DNA of 54,581 nt from a virus. Numbering within the stretch: the first letter of the stretch is position 1; each line of letters starts with the position of its first letter. The notes beneath the pieces are model-generated. The model was given only the letters and a program-made list of their open reading frames with translations, made no database searches and was not told the origin of the DNA. Location of the stretch: the IMG/VR virus record IMGVR_UViG_3300023093_000003, positions 1 to 54,581 of that record; one strand, 5' to 3'. Shown here in pieces: positions 35,780-50,307 of the stretch. A program made the position numbers and the translations under genes.

Positions 35780-36682
35780 CTAGGCGGAGGTGGCGGCCCG
35801 CTTGTAAGGGCCACGCTTTTTGCCCCGCTGAGCAGCGCTTTGGTTCGCGCGGTGCTCTGGCGACGCCTTGCGACCGCGGAGCGTTTCCGCAATTTTCGCT
35901 CTATACTCGGGAGGGCGCTCGCGGCTGCGAGTGCCGTTCTCGTATGCCTTCCGAAGCGCTTCAGACTTAGCTGCGCGCTGCTCGGGAGTGTCTTTGTGCG
36001 CTAGGCGGCCTGCTTGAAGCGCGGCCATGTGCTCCGGCGGTACAATTCTGCCTTTGTTGGCCGCAGATAGGTTTGCCCTGTGCTCATCAGATCGAGGCGG
36101 CCGTTTTCGGCCCGTCATCTTCGCCGATAATTTGGCCCTAGTCTCATCAGACCGCTTCATACCGCGATGCGCTGCAGCCGTTTTTTCGACCGCATCAGCC
36201 GATCTCGCTTTTCCCTTCATCGGGGAAGTTCTCCCCTTCGCTGCAGCCGACCTTTTGGCTCTGACTTCGGGGTCTGCGGAAATTCGTCTCTGCTGCTCCC
36301 TCAGTTTTTCGAGGTGGTCGGGATTGTCCAACATCCGCTGTTTTGCCCGCTCGCTCGCACGCTGGCGCTGCTCAGGCGTAGCGCGAACGCCTAGGCAGGA
36401 GCCGGCAACAGGTGCAATATTGTACTCTGGCCGGAGCGTGTCGAAGTAATGCTGCTCTCTCTCAATCAGAGCGCTTTTAACCACAACGGTCTCTAGTACT
36501 CGGAACTCGAAAAATTCCGGGCCGTGCTTGGTCCATGAACTTTGCAAATGTCGAGAGTGGTGCGAGCCATGCTTAAGATGATGCCGATGGAGCTTCCACC
36601 TGGCCTCCAAATTGACTGCGCTGCCAATGTAGCGCTTGCCGTTCACAAGATTGACGATCTCGTATATGCCCGAGTCAGCCAT
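35780..36682 (-). CDS. GIY-YIG homing endonuclease with NUMOD3 repeats
   Basis: 300 residues from ATG 36682; a longer frame to 36760 exists. N-terminal GIY-YIG domain (GIYEIVNLVNGKRYIGSAVN, catalytic Arg/His/Glu region EREQHYFDTLRPEYNIAP). It is followed by repeated NUMOD3 DNA-binding motifs of the form S-x-E-x-R-x2-(M/L)S-x2-KG (from about 130). Free-standing gene between TerL and the protease, an insertion typical of mobile homing nucleases that cut empty alleles. Confidence 0.92.
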   Translation of the reverse strand: MADSGIYEIVNLVNGKRYIGSAVNLEARWKLHRHHLKHGSHHSRHLQSSWTKHGPEFFEFRVLETVVVKSALIEREQHYFDTLRPEYNIAPVAGSCLGVRATPEQRQRASERAKQRMLDNPDHLEKLREQQRRISADPEVRAKRSAAAKGRTSPMKGKARSADAVEKTAAAHRGMKRSDETRAKLSAKMTGRKRPPRSDEHRANLSAANKGRIVPPEHMAALQAGRLAHKDTPEQRAAKSEALRKAYENGTRSRERPPEYRAKIAETLRGRKASPEHRANQSAAQRGKKRGPYKRAATSA

Positions 36683-36764
36683 GCGGTGCACCTCAACTGC
36701 ATTCGTGGTTAGGGTCGGGATCGGTGCTCCAACACCATCTCGACCCGATTTGCTTATCACATCC

Positions 36765-43197: not shown

Positions 43198-43388
43198 GCT
43201 GCGGCACGCTTGGCTGCGTAAAGCGCCTGCCCTATCCACTCGGTAACATCGCTGTCGCGCTTGAAGAGCAGCCTCAGTTCAACCAAGGCATCGTCGGAGC
43301 GGCCGCCGACGATCGCCTGAACGATCGGGATAATGTCAGTGCGGGCGACCGTGCTGCGCTCGCGATCTTCGGTCACGATGTCGATCAT
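43194..43388 (-). CDS. Small hypothetical protein between clamp and GapR
   Basis: 64 residues from ATG 43388, ATGA overlaps at both ends. [20 protein letters not shown] then helical. The longer frame to 43646 lies in the clamp gene. Unknown role; its placement suggests co-expression with replication proteins. Confidence 0.65.
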
Positions 43389-44512
43389 GCGGCAATCCTC
43401 TCTTCGTGGAATTTCGGGATGAAGGGCGCGACCAGCGCGCGAACGTCGCCGCGGCCGGGCGAGGTGATCGCGGTCGGCTCCAGGGGGGCGCCCATTGACC
43501 ACGCGATCGTCTCGGAGCCGAACAGCGCCAGGGCATCGCGAACCGGACGCAGCGCGAAGGTGATGTCCATCGGCGTGCCGTTCCATTGCGCCACCAACTC
43601 GCATTGACCGTGGTCGCTGTTCTGCGCGCGGGCGCTGGCGAAGCATGTGCTGCCGAGCGAAAGGCGGAAGTCGCGATCGCGGCTGTCGGCGACCGCCGCA
43701 ACGAGCTCGATATCCGCGAGCAGGAAGTCTGCGCGGGCGGTGAGGGTGTTGGGCATCGCTGCATCGAACTCTTGCGACGTCGGCGGGTACGCGGCGTCGA
43801 TGAGCGGAGAGGCAATCCGCGTGCCGGCGAAATCGAACGCGATGCTGCGGTCGTCGATCGTGATGCCGACCGGCTCCGTGCCATTGGGGAGCACGGCGAG
43901 CAGTAGACGTGCCGTGCCATTGGGGAGCACGGCTTGGACGTCGTCTTGCGCGGCCGAAGTCATTTCGTGGATGCGGCTGGAATCGGTCGCGATGAAACCG
44001 AGCTGGTCGGCGCTGCCATGCAGCAGCACCGCGCCGAGATACGGCTTCACGAGATCGTCCTTCGGGACCGCTGCGACAGCCTCAAGGCCAGCGCGCAACA
44101 GGTCCGCCCGCGCCGTCAGCACCGCGCCTTGCGGGTCACGGGCTGGATACAGCGGCTTGTCGAAGTTCGGCAGCGATGCGCGCGACCGGCCGGCCGCGAG
44201 CGATACGGTCATCCCGTTGTCGGTCATTTCGACGCGCGCGCCCTTGGACGCCTTCTCCACCCAGCGCGACAGTGCAACGAACGGAACCGTTACGGCGAGA
44301 CTGATACCCTCGACGGCAACGCGGGTGCTGATCGAGCGATCAGTGTTGGCGCTGGTGATCGTGGCCAAGCCGTCGGCGGCCACGATGCGGATTAGCCCGA
44401 GGGGTGCCGACGATGGCGTCGACACGGACCAGGGTGGCGCCCAAGGCGGAACGCTGCCCGCGATGGCGAGAGCAGCGACGAACGCCTCTCGCTCGACGGT
44501 GATCGTCGTCAT
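43385..44512 (-). CDS. dnaN: DNA polymerase III beta sliding clamp homologue
   Basis: 375 residues from ATG 44512, about the length of bacterial DnaN. Three related domains: SLAAGRSRASLPNFDKPLYP (domain 1 end), GAVLLHGSADQLGFIATDSS and RIHEMTS (domain 2, like the LRGVL..ATDGHRL box), and DFLLADIELVAAVADSRDRD and NGTPMDITFALRPVRDALAL (domain 3, near the partner pocket). The usual C-terminal M-P-x-R/L-end is changed to [13 protein letters not shown]. Would tether polymerase to phage DNA, or divert the host replisome. Confidence 0.9.
   Translation of the reverse strand: MTTITVEREAFVAALAIAGSVPPWAPPWSVSTPSSAPLGLIRIVAADGLATITSANTDRSISTRVAVEGISLAVTVPFVALSRWVEKASKGARVEMTDNGMTVSLAAGRSRASLPNFDKPLYPARDPQGAVLTARADLLRAGLEAVAAVPKDDLVKPYLGAVLLHGSADQLGFIATDSSRIHEMTSAAQDDVQAVLPNGTARLLLAVLPNGTEPVGITIDDRSIAFDFAGTRIASPLIDAAYPPTSQEFDAAMPNTLTARADFLLADIELVAAVADSRDRDFRLSLGSTCFASARAQNSDHGQCELVAQWNGTPMDITFALRPVRDALALFGSETIAWSMGAPLEPTAITSPGRGDVRALVAPFIPKFHEERIAA
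43876..43933. repeat. Local 22-bp direct repeat in the clamp gene
   Basis: Bases 43876-43897 recur exactly at 43912-43933 (period 36 bp, twelve codons). They encode the doubled segment AVLPNGTARLLLAVLPNGTE. An in-frame slippage duplication or inherited loop repeat. Confidence 0.8.
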
Positions 44513-45072
44513 GCTCGTGCTCCTTCGGTGTGTGTGGTGGGAATCCGCTTCCACGCGTCGGCGTCGAAGCCCTTGAACTCGGCGCGCTCGATGATGTCGG
44601 CGTCGGTGAGAGGGTAGGCGTTTCCGCGCCGCCAGAACTTGCCTTTGGGGTTCTGTCGCCCTGTTCCTTCGCAGCGGAACACCGGCCCGAATCGCTGGAG
44701 GAACTCGGCCGCCTGCCCGGCGCGGGTCATGTCGCGCTGGGTATCGGTGACCTTGCTGCGGCGCTGGCCCGACAGGATCGTGGCCGTCTTGCGGAACTTG
44801 ACGCCGTGCTCAGCCGCCCAGCGCTGGACGACCTTTTCGCCGCGACCAAAGAAGGCCTGGGCCTCGTGCCGTGTCATTGTCGGCGCCAGAGCGGCGAAGT
44901 TGGCGGGCGCAGGGGCGGCGGTGTTCGTTATCCTAGCCGGAATCCCGCATATCCGACGCCAGCGCGCTATGCAGCCCGGCCATGAGCCGTAGTGGACAGC
45001 GAGATCCTTGCTGGACATGATCGCAGCGTGCTGCGGGAAATCCGCCGGCATGGGATATTGAGCGCGGGGCAT
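44509..45072 (-). CDS. Hypothetical protein with two HTH-like segments
   Basis: 187 residues from ATG 45072 (TGATG overlap). Two similar helix-turn-helix-like stretches: SSKDLAVHYGSWPGCIARWR and TRHEAQAFFGRGEKVVQRWA. The C-terminal half is basic with a final DADIIERAEFKGFDADAWKR. May bind DNA at two half sites. No family name. Confidence 0.68.
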   Translation of the reverse strand: MPRAQYPMPADFPQHAAIMSSKDLAVHYGSWPGCIARWRRICGIPARITNTAAPAPANFAALAPTMTRHEAQAFFGRGEKVVQRWAAEHGVKFRKTATILSGQRRSKVTDTQRDMTRAGQAAEFLQRFGPVFRCEGTGRQNPKGKFWRRGNAYPLTDADIIERAEFKGFDADAWKRIPTTHTEGARA

Positions 45073-47250: not shown

Positions 47251-47733
47251 TTATGCGGGGACGGCGCGCGGAGATCGCAGCGCCGTGATGTCGTTGATCC
47301 ATTGCGCGGTGAGCGCGTGGACCCTGCGAATGTCGGGCTCCATCGCGAGCAACTCGGCGTGCGTCTTCGCGACGCCACCATCGCTCTCGGGCGATTCCGC
47401 CTCGGCAACCTTGGCGAGCAGAGACGCGAGCGGCACCGTGCCGGCAGCGTCCAGCGGATCGCTGGCGATCTTGACCAGTTGGAAGCCGTAGAGCGCGGCG
47501 ATGTCGTCCAGCGCCGTTGGGCACGCGCGCGTCGCGTCGAACAGGCGCTTGGGGCCGGGCATCGCGTCGCGGAGAAGGATGTTCTCGAGCCCCTTGCTGC
47601 TCAGATCCATCTCAGCAGCGAGCGCGCGGCGCCCGGCAGAGGCGTGGGCACAGCGCGAAAGGCCGCGAAGCATGGCCGCACGGAACTCTGCTTCCGTCGG
47701 AGGCTCATTTTGTGGAACGACACTATCAAGCAT
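47251..47733 (-). CDS. HTH-type phage regulatory protein
   Basis: 160 residues from ATG 47733. EAEFRAAMLRGLSRCAHASA, GRRALAAEMDLSSKGLENIL and RDAMPGPKRLFDA form a helical DNA-binding pattern (XRE-like, as in phage regulators with atypical HTH). The C-terminal part is an acidic helix. Overlaps the cupin-like gene by 8 bp. Confidence 0.68.
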   Translation of the reverse strand: MLDSVVPQNEPPTEAEFRAAMLRGLSRCAHASAGRRALAAEMDLSSKGLENILLRDAMPGPKRLFDATRACPTALDDIAALYGFQLVKIASDPLDAAGTVPLASLLAKVAEAESPESDGGVAKTHAELLAMEPDIRRVHALTAQWINDITALRSPRAVPA

Positions 47734-48385
47734 TATGCTGCACCTGCTTCGTATGAACAGAGACACTCTCCACACGGCGCCAAAAGCTCTCAGGCTCGCG
47801 ATAGGGCGAGAATTGGTGCGGCGCAGCGCCGTCCGGCCCGACACTGGGGAGGCTGTCGGGCCGGGGCTGCAGCGCTGGCGCTTCAAGGACACCAGCGCGA
47901 GGGGAAATATCGTGCTCACCGCAACCGCGACCGACCAGCTCGCCGTTCGCACCAGCGGTGAAGTCGCGCCAGTGGACCCAGCCGGAATCACAATGGAACC
48001 CCCATTCACGGACCTTCGGGCCGGTGAAGAACAGCGAGACGAAGGGCTCTCCGTCGATAAGCTCGAGGCGGTGCGAATCCGTCGCGTCCCGCGTGACGAG
48101 CGAACCGGCCTCGCGGATAAAGACACCGCTTGGCGTGATCTCGCGGTAGCGGCCGCGCAGCAGGAGCGATTGATTGTCCCACGGGTGGTCGTGCAGGGCG
48201 CGGTCGTCATCGTCGCGCAAGCCCTGGTGGAGATAGACGTTCTTCGCGTGGTTCTTGGGGATGACCCACCAGCGCCGCAGATACGGATCGATCTTGCCGC
48301 CTATCTCCAAGTCGGGGGCGCGCTCCATCACCTCTCCGGCCCATTCGGCCATGTCGGTGACCGTGGCGTAGCTGATCGGGCTCAT
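47726..48385 (-). CDS. Cupin-like phage protein
   Basis: 219 residues from ATG 48385. ALHDHPWDNQSLLLRGRYRE is the first cupin motif, with two His and a Gly turn, and later THRLEL-like and WGFHCDSGWVHW give a second metal-binding strand pair. This HDHPW family is frequent in phages of alphaproteobacteria. Enzymatic role unknown. Confidence 0.8.
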   Translation of the reverse strand: MSPISYATVTDMAEWAGEVMERAPDLEIGGKIDPYLRRWWVIPKNHAKNVYLHQGLRDDDDRALHDHPWDNQSLLLRGRYREITPSGVFIREAGSLVTRDATDSHRLELIDGEPFVSLFFTGPKVREWGFHCDSGWVHWRDFTAGANGELVGRGCGEHDISPRAGVLEAPALQPRPDSLPSVGPDGAAPHQFSPYREPESFWRRVESVSVHTKQVQHNA

Positions 48386-48492
48386 CGCAGCACCGCCAAC
48401 GCGGCAGGCGCCAGCATGATGGCGATCGTAAGCACCCATGCTGCAATGTCGCCGACGGAGAACTCGAACTGCGCGAGCGTGGCCGCGAACAT
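48382..48492 (-). CDS. Tiny membrane protein
   Basis: 36 residues from ATG 48492; stop overlaps the cupin ATG (ATGA). One membrane segment (AAWVLTIAIMLAPAALAVL). Longer upstream frame to 49071 is antisense to two plus-strand genes and rejected. Confidence 0.5.
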   Translation of the reverse strand: MFAATLAQFEFSVGDIAAWVLTIAIMLAPAALAVLR

Positions 48493-48858: not shown

Positions 48859-49077
48859 ATGCGTTTCAACGGACGCTTTTTCACCGAGCAGCCGCCCGAG
48901 TTCTCCATTGACGAACACGATGTCGTTACCATTCGGTTTACCGATGGCGAGATGGCGCTGGAAATCCTGTGTTCGCCCAACACCTTTTTTAAGGGGCAGG
49001 CCAGCGCCAAGCACGTCACGGAGGAATGGCTTGGGCGGAGGCGAGATGCTCGCTTCATTCCCGAAGATCATAGCTGA
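48859..49077 (+). CDS. Small hypothetical beta-rich protein
   Basis: 72 residues, three bases after the previous stop. MRFNGRFFTEQPPEFSIDEH and VVTIRFTDGEMALEILCSPN are beta-strand rich. Ends by overlapping the 3' end of the Cro-like gene on the other strand by 10 bp. Confidence 0.65.
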   Translation: MRFNGRFFTEQPPEFSIDEHDVVTIRFTDGEMALEILCSPNTFFKGQASAKHVTEEWLGRRRDARFIPEDHS

Positions 49078-49283
49078 CCTCCCGCCGCGTTACCGCGCTT
49101 GCGCGCCGGGTAAGAAGCCATGAACGTCCGCACCCGATCCACAGTCGCGCGGCGCGGTTCGCGCTGCAAACGAAGCTGCCGGACAAAATGGCGATCGCGC
49201 AACGCGGCATCGCCAAACGTGGACTCGCTCATGCCATGCTGAGCGATAAAGTCCTCAATAGCGGGGAGCAGGTCATCCATCAT
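49068..49283 (-). CDS. Cro-like small DNA-binding protein
   Basis: 71 residues from ATG 49283 (or 49280). IEDFIAQHGMSESTFGDAAL, RDRHFVRQLRLQREPRRATV is an HTH pattern common in alphaproteobacterial phages. It is the first gene from PL, divergent from the repressor. The start codon lies just where transcription from PL should begin, so the mRNA may be leaderless. Upstream ATG 49292 falls in the -10 box and is unlikely. Confidence 0.72.
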   Translation of the reverse strand: MMDDLLPAIEDFIAQHGMSESTFGDAALRDRHFVRQLRLQREPRRATVDRVRTFMASYPARKRGNAAGGQL

Positions 49284-49290
49284 GGGTCGC

Positions 49291-49319
49291 ATGATATGTG
49301 GGATATTTCCCACGGTCAA
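49291..49319 (-). promoter_or_regulatory. PL: leftward early promoter with operator in the spacer
   Basis: On the minus strand TTGACC (49319-49314), a 17-base spacer and TATCAT (49296-49291) match the sigma-70 consensus at 5 of 6 positions each. The spacer is operator O1 plus one base. Transcription would start near 49284, at the Cro-like start codon. Confidence 0.85.
49298..49313. promoter_or_regulatory. Repressor operator O1
   Basis: GTGGGATATTTCCCAC: perfect inverted half sites GTGGGA/TCCCAC with a TATT centre. Fills the PL spacer, so bound repressor would block polymerase. Confidence 0.85.
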
Positions 49320-49329
49320 GCCCAGCGGC

Positions 49330-49345
49330 GTGGGATATTTCGTCA
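49330..49345. promoter_or_regulatory. Repressor operator O2
   Basis: GTGGGATATTTCGTCA: left half site perfect, right half degenerate. Lies 32 bp from O1 (three helical turns), which would allow cooperative binding. Confidence 0.7.
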
Positions 49346-49366
49346 CTCCCTCAGCGCAGCACGGAC

Positions 49367-49382
49367 GTGCGATATTTCCCAC
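49367..49382. promoter_or_regulatory. Repressor operator O3, adjoining the repressor start codon
   Basis: GTGCGATATTTCCCAC ends at the base before ATG 49383. It occupies the place of a ribosome site, which is absent, so the repressor mRNA may be leaderless and autorepressed by binding here. Spacing to O2 is 37 bp. Confidence 0.75.
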
Positions 49383-49976
49383 ATGGCAACCTCACTCAAC
49401 ATCCAGCTCATCCGCGACCGCATCGAAGCCGAAATGGAGCGGAAGGGTTTTAGCCGCCGGAAGCTCTCAATCCAGGCGGGCGTTGGAGTCACCGCGATCC
49501 GCGATCTATTGGAGCGCACCGAGAATCCGGGGATCGGCACTTTGCACAAGGTTGCCGAAGCGCTTGATGTGACATTCGAGCAGATCAGCGGGCCGGACGC
49601 CGTTCCATTGTTGGGCGAGATCGGTGCTGGCGGCAGGATTGCGTTCTTCAAGGACGATCACGAATACGAGACGGTCCCGCGCCCGCCTCTGGCCCCCGGG
49701 CCGCTAATGGCCCTCAAGGTGTCTGGCGACTCGATGCTGCCGAAGTATGAGCCGGGAGACATAATCTACGTGCGCCGGGACCATGACGGGGTTCTCGCCG
49801 AATATCTCGGGCAATATTGCGCCATCAACTGCGGAGATGGCGGAACATATTTGAAGCGCCTCACCGCAGGGACCGAGCCAGATCGGTATACGCTACTATC
49901 GCTCAATGCTGCGGATATGCCGAATATGGAGGTCATATGGGCCGCGCCTGTCTTATTCATTATGCCGCGTCGTTGA
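49383..49976 (+). CDS. cI: CI/LexA-like prophage repressor (XRE HTH plus S24 peptidase)
   Basis: 197 residues. HTH at about 23-62 (FSRRKLSIQAGVGVTAIRDL). Peptidase domain has cleavage-type Ala-Gly at 82-83 (GEIGAGGRI), Ser117 in VSGDSMLPKYEPGD and Lys158 in TYLKRL, the LexA/CI self-cleavage pair. So it should be inactivated through RecA on DNA damage. Flanked by five operators; no Shine-Dalgarno before its ATG. A longer frame from 49188 crosses operators and is rejected. Confidence 0.93.
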   Translation: MATSLNIQLIRDRIEAEMERKGFSRRKLSIQAGVGVTAIRDLLERTENPGIGTLHKVAEALDVTFEQISGPDAVPLLGEIGAGGRIAFFKDDHEYETVPRPPLAPGPLMALKVSGDSMLPKYEPGDIIYVRRDHDGVLAEYLGQYCAINCGDGGTYLKRLTAGTEPDRYTLLSLNAADMPNMEVIWAAPVLFIMPRR

Positions 49977-50007
49977 TCGAGATGCCGACGCCGACCGGAA
50001 AATAAGA

Positions 50008-50023
50008 ATGGGATATTTCACAG
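50008..50023. promoter_or_regulatory. Repressor operator O4
   Basis: ATGGGATATTTCACAG: central GGGATATTTC conserved, outer bases degenerate. Lies just upstream of the -35 of PR, 31 bp from O5 (three helical turns). Confidence 0.7.
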
Positions 50024-50030
50024 GTCCCGC

Positions 50031-50059
50031 TTGACGCCGTGTGAAATATCCCACATAAC
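50031..50059 (+). promoter_or_regulatory. PR: rightward early promoter with operator in the spacer
   Basis: TTGACG (50031-50036), 17-base spacer, CATAAC (50054-50059). The -35 matches 5 of 6, the -10 4 of 6. Operator O5 fills the spacer. Drives the rightward early operon starting at 50095. Confidence 0.78.
50039..50054. promoter_or_regulatory. Repressor operator O5
   Basis: GTGTGAAATATCCCAC, the operator in inverted orientation, lies within the PR spacer and the first -10 base, mirroring O1 in PL. Confidence 0.8.
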
Positions 50060-50094
50060 ACCTCCAACGCCACATGGCGACGGAGGCACGGTAC

Positions 50095-50307
50095 ATGGCG
50101 CAGGCCAGCACAGATTGGATCGAGTGGGCCGGCGGTGAATGTCCGGTTCATCCCAATGATTTTTTGCAGGTCCAGTTTCGCTGCGAGAGCCGTGAAAAAG
50201 CCTCGCAGGATGAGCCTGAAATTGCCGATGACGGGCGATTTCGGTTCATTTGGACCCACGATCTCGGCAGTCACGACATCATCGCCTACCGCGTGGTGTC
50301 CGCATGA
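50095..50307 (+). CDS. Small WIEWAGGECPV protein, copy 2
   Basis: 70 residues from ATG 50095 with GGAGG about 8 bases upstream (ATG 50074 also in frame). Shares DWIEWAGGECPV and HDIIAYRVVSA with the gene at 8301-8483. First gene under PR. Role unknown. Confidence 0.75.
   Translation: MAQASTDWIEWAGGECPVHPNDFLQVQFRCESREKASQDEPEIADDGRFRFIWTHDLGSHDIIAYRVVSA

Follow-up and report, generated by a model that had tools for sequence, protein, structure and literature searches.

The repressor region of the window, by which we mean the whole 54.6-kb viral contig that was analysed, is best explained as the lambda-type immunity switch of a temperate caudovirus, and to this explanation as a whole we give a probability of about 0.72. 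The minus strand of the window encodes the terminase, portal, capsid and tail proteins, and the regulatory module lies at 49.07-50.31 kb. The host of the phage is probably an alphaproteobacterium; a search of genome contigs with the single repressor sequence found only ~30% identical proteins, nearly all of them from Bradyrhizobium. The left part of the module and the operators are composed of the following features.

49068-49283, minus strand: Cro-like gene, 71 aa from the ATG at 49283 or 70 aa from a second ATG at 49280
49291-49319, minus strand: promoter PL, -35 TTGACC (49319-49314), 17-bp spacer with O1, -10 TATCAT (49296-49291)
49298-49313: operator O1, GTGGGATATTTCCCAC, inside the PL spacer
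49330-49345: operator O2, GTGGGATATTTCGTCA, one half-site conserved and the other degenerate, 13/16
49367-49382: operator O3, GTGCGATATTTCCCAC, last base directly before the repressor ATG
49368-49376, plus strand: putative extended -10 of the repressor promoter PRM, TGcGATATT inside O3, predicted start at 49383, the A of the ATG
49383-49976, plus strand: repressor gene, 197 aa, HTH and Peptidase S24
50008-50023: operator O4, ATGGGATATTTCACAG
50031-50059, plus strand: promoter PR, -35 TTGACG (50031-50036), 17-bp spacer with O5, -10 CATAAC (50054-50059), predicted start ~50066
50039-50054: operator O5, GTGTGAAATATCCCAC, inside the PR spacer

Homologous loci were collected by profile searches of IMG/VR; the search with the repressor gave 15 close relatives (44-80% identity), and that with the Cro-like protein gave 18 further loci. 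We also included L313, a plasmid region of Sphingomonas parapaucimobilis YK209 (NZ_CP155750.1) that resembles a prophage. L313 resembles the window in that the operator is present in the PL spacer, the Cro-like ATG follows the -10 by 7 nt and O3 abuts the repressor ATG, whereas it differs in having a repressor of another group and a HIRAN gene convergent with it. Matches of the Cro-like profile in 385 alphaproteobacterial genomes were mostly diverged homologues whose upstream regions showed no operator-filled promoter of the kind seen here, and these were excluded. A raw scan of IMG/VR with the operator pattern returned mostly single chance matches and was left out of the analysis.

The five operators that flank the repressor gene have the form GTG(G/T)GA..TC(C/A)CAC. 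When the window was scanned with GTGGGATATTTCCCAC allowing up to three mismatches, seven strand-matches were obtained against 0.22 expected, all of them within 49298-50054, and none of 100 shuffled sequences reached seven; no site of the GTG(G/T)GA type was found elsewhere in the 54.6-kb window. The original prediction had placed five operators around the repressor, with O1 and O5 each filling the 17-bp spacer of an outward promoter and O3 ending at the base before the repressor ATG. All five sites were recovered, and the coordinates bear out the positions of O1, O5 and O3 (end at 49382, ATG at 49383-49385). The layout recurs throughout 31 homologous loci, with some degenerate O2 and O3 sites in L230 and L274, and the assignment of an immunity switch with five operators and outward promoters is backed by the sequence together with ~34 homologous loci. 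The letters of the operators diverge widely (GTGGGATATTTCCCAC in the window, GTGTGTAACAACACAC in L265, GTTGGATTAATCCAAC in L230), and the left and right operators covary across the loci, as in L230 (GTTGGATTAATCCAAC / GTTGGATTAGTCCAAC). Such a concerted change is expected if all sites are read by one protein.

The operators are separated by 32 bp (O1-O2), 37 bp (O2-O3) and 31 bp (O4-O5) in the window. Across the loci, the O1-O2 distance is 31-32 or 21-23 bp and the O4-O5 distance 29-33 bp, and in nearly all of them O2 and O3 start at -53 and -16 relative to the repressor start, a fixed interval of 37 bp. At 10.5 bp per turn, O1/O2 and O4/O5 are each on about the same face of the helix and O3 is off-face, a phasing that would permit cooperative binding within the pairs O1-O2 and O4-O5.

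The repressor appears from its sequence to be of the self-cleaving type. Pfam searches detected S24 (PF00717, E 4.8e-13) and HTH (PF13443/PF01381, E 2.4e-5) domains, the PHROG match was the transcriptional repressor family PHROG_4, a G-A-G-G cleavage motif is present at residues 81-84, and S117 and K158 are invariant among the relatives. Of 34 distinct loci, 30 have a 16-bp operator whose last base directly adjoins the start codon of the repressor gene, including loci with altered operator letters; in two others it ends at a distance of 2 nt, and L230 and L274 show no clear site. The start codon is ATG in most loci and GTG in L260, L271 and L277. Within O3, TGnGATA at -15 to -9 is kept in most of 33 loci; no consensus -35 was recognisable for PRM. 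Positions -43 to -32 relative to the repressor start (window 49340-49351) are kept as well, as TTTCGcgA.TCCC or, in the loci of set 2 (see below), as CTATCCC. This block spans the degenerate half of O2 and extends further, and its spacing is not that of a normal -35.

The gene adjoining the three-operator cluster, divergent from the repressor gene, is predicted by structural modelling to encode a small HTH protein like Cro. Its AlphaFold2 model (pLDDT 82) is a small all-helical HTH fold of four helices, and the top Foldseek matches were mainly Cro/C1-type HTH proteins (SinR, C.Esp1396I, the 434 repressor DNA-binding domain and HipB); these matches had TM ~0.6 and none reached E <= 0.001, so that the assignment goes by TM-score, with E-values that are not significant. 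Pfam and PHROG searches with the protein gave no match. The ATG that aligns with the relatives in a 16-member alignment is the second one (49280). PL agrees with the consensus at 10 of 12 positions (TTGACC - 17 bp - TATCAT), and its predicted start (~49283) coincides with the Cro-like ATG, which lies 7 nt past the -10; a palindrome-filled PL spacer and a Cro-like ATG 7-8 nt after the -10 were found in 35 of 35 loci. The position of the -10 implies a leader of 0-2 nt for the Cro-like mRNA.

No Shine-Dalgarno (SD) sequence was found upstream of either the repressor or the Cro-like start, and there is no room for one before the repressor because O3 occupies -16 to -1 in 30 of 34 loci. It is therefore likely that both proteins are made from leaderless mRNA, since the Cro-like ATG spacing and the abutment of O3 are conserved across homologous switches, the ATG spacing being maintained even where repressor identity is down to 45%. 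Several points of the original prediction can be judged here. The repressor ATG indeed has no ribosome site, and a PL start at the Cro-like ATG fits a normal start point 7 nt after the -10. The reading that both regulators have leaderless mRNAs gains from a promoter geometry conserved in ~34 homologous loci and remains a prediction. The word strong, applied to both outward promoters, suits PL more than PR, because the -10 of PR matches the E. coli consensus at only 4 of 6 positions and PR was absent from a strict promoter scan. Leaderless mRNAs are not rare in alphaproteobacteria, as 119 leaderless TSS-gene pairs were mapped in Zymomonas mobilis (PMC7566282). Nor is a leaderless cI and cro pair new in kind; by RACE, cI and cro in the immB region of the telomere phage PY54 each gave a single leaderless mRNA (Hammerl et al. 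2015, PMC4488713). The window locus shares with PY54 the divergent cI and cro genes, both leaderless (here by prediction), whereas PY54 Cro recognises one operator only (OR3) and is apparently without control of its own promoter, and the host of PY54 is an enterobacterium (PMC4488713).

Two features go beyond the original prediction, namely a covarying anti-SD/SD hairpin at PR and a remnant of a gene in the rex position. They involve the following elements.

49937-50005, plus strand: remnant ORF of 22 codons (MGRACLIHYAASLIEMPTPTGK and a stop), the stop 2 bp before O4
50061-50065, plus strand: anti-SD arm CCTCC, 3' of the PR -10 and 5' of the predicted +1
50082-50086, plus strand: Shine-Dalgarno GGAGG of the first rightward gene, predicted to pair with 50061-50065 in read-through RNA
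50095-50307, plus strand: first rightward early gene, 70 aa, PHROG_9174, function unknown

Relatives of the window carry a gene that overlaps the 3' end of the repressor gene and lies between it and O4, that is, in the rex position. In five of them (L217, L218, L220, L227 and L228) this gene encodes a Rap1a-family protein; the five proteins have N-terminal signal-peptide-like sequences, and their genes are likely to be lysogenic-conversion genes. The repressor operon is aimed at PR, and a terminator-like site between the repressor and PR is absent in 28 of 31 loci. Several loci of set 2 have a convergent gene in this interval, where read-through would thus first run antisense to that gene.

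The start of the first rightward gene was set at 50095 on the basis of a well-placed SD (13 nt upstream) and the start style of the relatives; an alternative start at 50074 was dropped. The PR start is uncertain by 1-2 nt owing to the weak -10 by the E. coli consensus. A C/T-rich arm directly follows the PR -10 in every locus, with some degree of complementarity to the first gene's SD. Since any anti-SD sequence fits any SD somewhat, the arms were tested on their own SDs and on those of other loci. The fit to the own SD was better than to swapped SDs both in set 1 (16 loci, z -5.4) and in the independent set 2 (15 loci, z -5.0), and the arm-SD covariation signal peaked near the -10/+1 interval, with none in stretches further upstream. 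The arm thus appears to be held complementary to the SD by covariation. The first rightward genes encode largely different proteins between loci, which suggests that the arm travels with the promoter. Their start codons lie 22 to 82 nt after the PR -10.

In 31 loci, the PR start was predicted from the position of the -10 to lie downstream of the 5' arm. We compared predicted folds of the read-through RNA with those of the PR-start RNA, which was modelled as starting 7 nt after the -10. The mean unpaired fraction of the SD was 0.05 in read-through RNA versus 0.47 in PR-start RNA in set 1 (paired test, p 3e-5), and 0.12 versus 0.31 in set 2 (p 0.007), the difference being smaller in set 2 and reversed in L270, L271 and L282. 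For the window, the fold z-score was -2.9 to -3.0 with the arm (read-through) and -0.8 without it (PR start).

From the computed site positions and their conservation, the covariation of operators and of arm and SD, and the lack of intrinsic terminators, we infer how binding, transcription starts and translation could be connected. A self-cleavable repressor would bind O1-O3 and O4-O5. Since O1 and O5 sit within the PL and PR spacers, its binding there would shut both outward operons, the leftward one with the Cro-like gene and the rightward one with accessory genes. The spacing of O1 and O2 by a nearly integral number of helical turns would suit cooperative binding, and the overlap of O3 with the extended -10 of the repressor's own promoter would allow autoregulation. 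The repressor and Cro-like mRNAs would begin at their AUGs. In a lysogen, RNA of the repressor operon, which has no terminator before PR, would enter the rightward early genes. In this RNA the CCUCC arm would pair with the SD of the first gene and block its translation; we propose such a lock because the hairpin should form only in RNA that has read through from the repressor operon. Once the repressor is cleaved in the SOS response, transcripts of PR would start past the arm, leaving the SD open for synthesis of early proteins, and leaderless Cro-like mRNA would be made from PL. More generally, it is probable, if far from certain, that a widespread temperate phage group, with at least some members in Sphingomonadales, carries a translation lock of this sort in a repressor-controlled early promoter, in which an anti-SD arm of 5-9 nt sits in the -10/+1 interval, coexists with leaderless regulators and moves with the promoter rather than with the downstream gene.

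The switch could be as described and the hairpin at PR nevertheless belong to the normal PR transcript, acting as a constant damper of translation or as protection of the message. Some arms reach nt 8-10 after the -10, the PR start is a predicted one, and the leader of B. subtilis sigG itself contains an RBS hairpin (PMC5942855). However, the core of the arm in the group of the window lies at nt 2-6 after the -10, nearer than polymerase usually starts (~7), the start implied for PL is 7-8 nt after its -10, and, with no terminator in between, silencing of the read-through RNA would serve a purpose. We therefore consider a hairpin in the PR transcript rather unlikely and prefer the read-through lock.

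It is still less probable that both regulators have ordinary leaders, with a repressor promoter further upstream, O3 serving as an operator only, and a PL start upstream of the -10 in use. PRM indeed has no consensus -35, and the conserved block at -43 to -32 could be part of another promoter, but the O3 site at -16 to -1 in 30 of 34 loci excludes an SD before the repressor, and an ordinary leader would not fix the Cro-like ATG at 7-8 nt in 35 of 35 loci. We regard as very improbable that the Cro-like protein is the main ligand of the GTG(G/T)GA sites, or that another protein binds the inverted repeat at PR as DNA. Cro-like proteins do usually share operators with the repressor. A DNA-binding dyad at PR is nonetheless disfavoured by the variable length of the loop, the start codons being 22-82 nt after the -10, and the fact that the 3' arm is always the SD, with arms that differ by locus, fits pairing in RNA.

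In phage lambda, OL and OR flank cI-rexAB; N lies beyond one cluster and cro, O and P beyond the other, and the cI mRNA from pRM is leaderless. The contrast with lambda drawn in the original prediction, that here the operator clusters bracket the repressor with all early genes outside, is thus mistaken, because the same is true of lambda. The window locus is the lambda plan in mirror image, rex position included. Both have the repressor gene between two operator clusters (here of two and three sites), repressor and Cro genes divergent at the three-site cluster, outward early promoters with operators in their spacers and, in relatives of the window, genes in the rex position between the repressor and the far cluster. 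Besides its mirrored orientation, the window locus differs from lambda in an unrelated operator sequence, in its spacing (31-32 or 21-23 bp for O1-O2 and 37 bp for O2-O3), in a far cluster of two operators instead of three, in a Cro-like mRNA that is predicted to be leaderless as well, in the lack of a recognised N-like gene, in a repressor operon that ends without a terminator, and in having an anti-SD hairpin at the far promoter. The Sinorhizobium phage 16-3 is likewise known to have operators flanking its repressor gene.

Fold-back inhibition in IS10 is one precedent for the proposed lock. The closest are the RBS-sequestering hairpins of T4 I-TevI, e and soc (reviewed in PMC2988022) and the long RBS hairpin of B. 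subtilis sigG (PMC5942855). The arrangement predicted here shares with the T4 and sigG cases an SD that is masked only in RNA derived from upstream and is freed when a proximal promoter starts inside the hairpin. Those hairpins act in long transcripts, where late or sporulation genes are silenced, whereas here the arm sits in the -10/+1 interval of an early promoter under repressor control in a temperate phage and persists while the downstream gene changes. In a search limited to open-licence papers, no published translation lock of this sort in a temperate phage switch was found. On the lambda plan lysogeny needs insulation, since the repressor operon points at one of the phage's own lytic operons. 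If the lock is real, these phages insulate at the level of translation with a promoter-embedded RNA arm in place of a terminator, a compact design that the sequence by itself suffices to recognise and that may be of use in synthetic circuits. If both regulators have fixed leaderless starts, the choice between lysis and lysogeny would be tied to the condition of the ribosome pool.

The leaderless starts probably also cause many annotation errors. In L313 (NZ_CP155750.1, 678991-679779), the annotation of the repressor, WP_347091694.1, begins too far upstream, at a GTG, and overlaps a Cro-like gene that was left unannotated; it is the ATG abutting O3 that is conserved as the start. Having no SD to use, gene callers are likely to extend the repressor gene at its 5' end and to overlook the Cro-like gene, as happened in YK209. 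In the alphaproteobacterial genome locus L291, GTGGGAAATATCCCAC, the same palindrome as in the phage operators, was found upstream of a diverged homologue of the Cro-like protein that is part of a long reading frame.

No LexA box (GAACN7GAAC) was found near the switch of the window, which contains two matches far off, about the number expected by chance. In L254, L265, L268, L270, L271, L272 and L313, GAACN7GAAC, the form of the alphaproteobacterial LexA box, is present ~65 bp before O5, where it precedes a small gene convergent with the repressor gene (encoding a HIRAN-domain protein in L313; L270 has a similar ORF). These relatives may thus place a host-SOS-controlled gene within the immunity region.

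Other genes on the minus strand of the window include a homologue of the DNA polymerase III beta-clamp in the leftward operon (43385-44554; PHROG_947, E 1.7e-45). Among the early leftward genes, that at 47726-48439 matched PHROG_4786, annotated as 'cysteine dioxygenase' (E 6.3e-57), with no match in Pfam. A homing-endonuclease-like gene (35780-36760; PHROG_314, E 1.1e-36) adjoins the large terminase gene.
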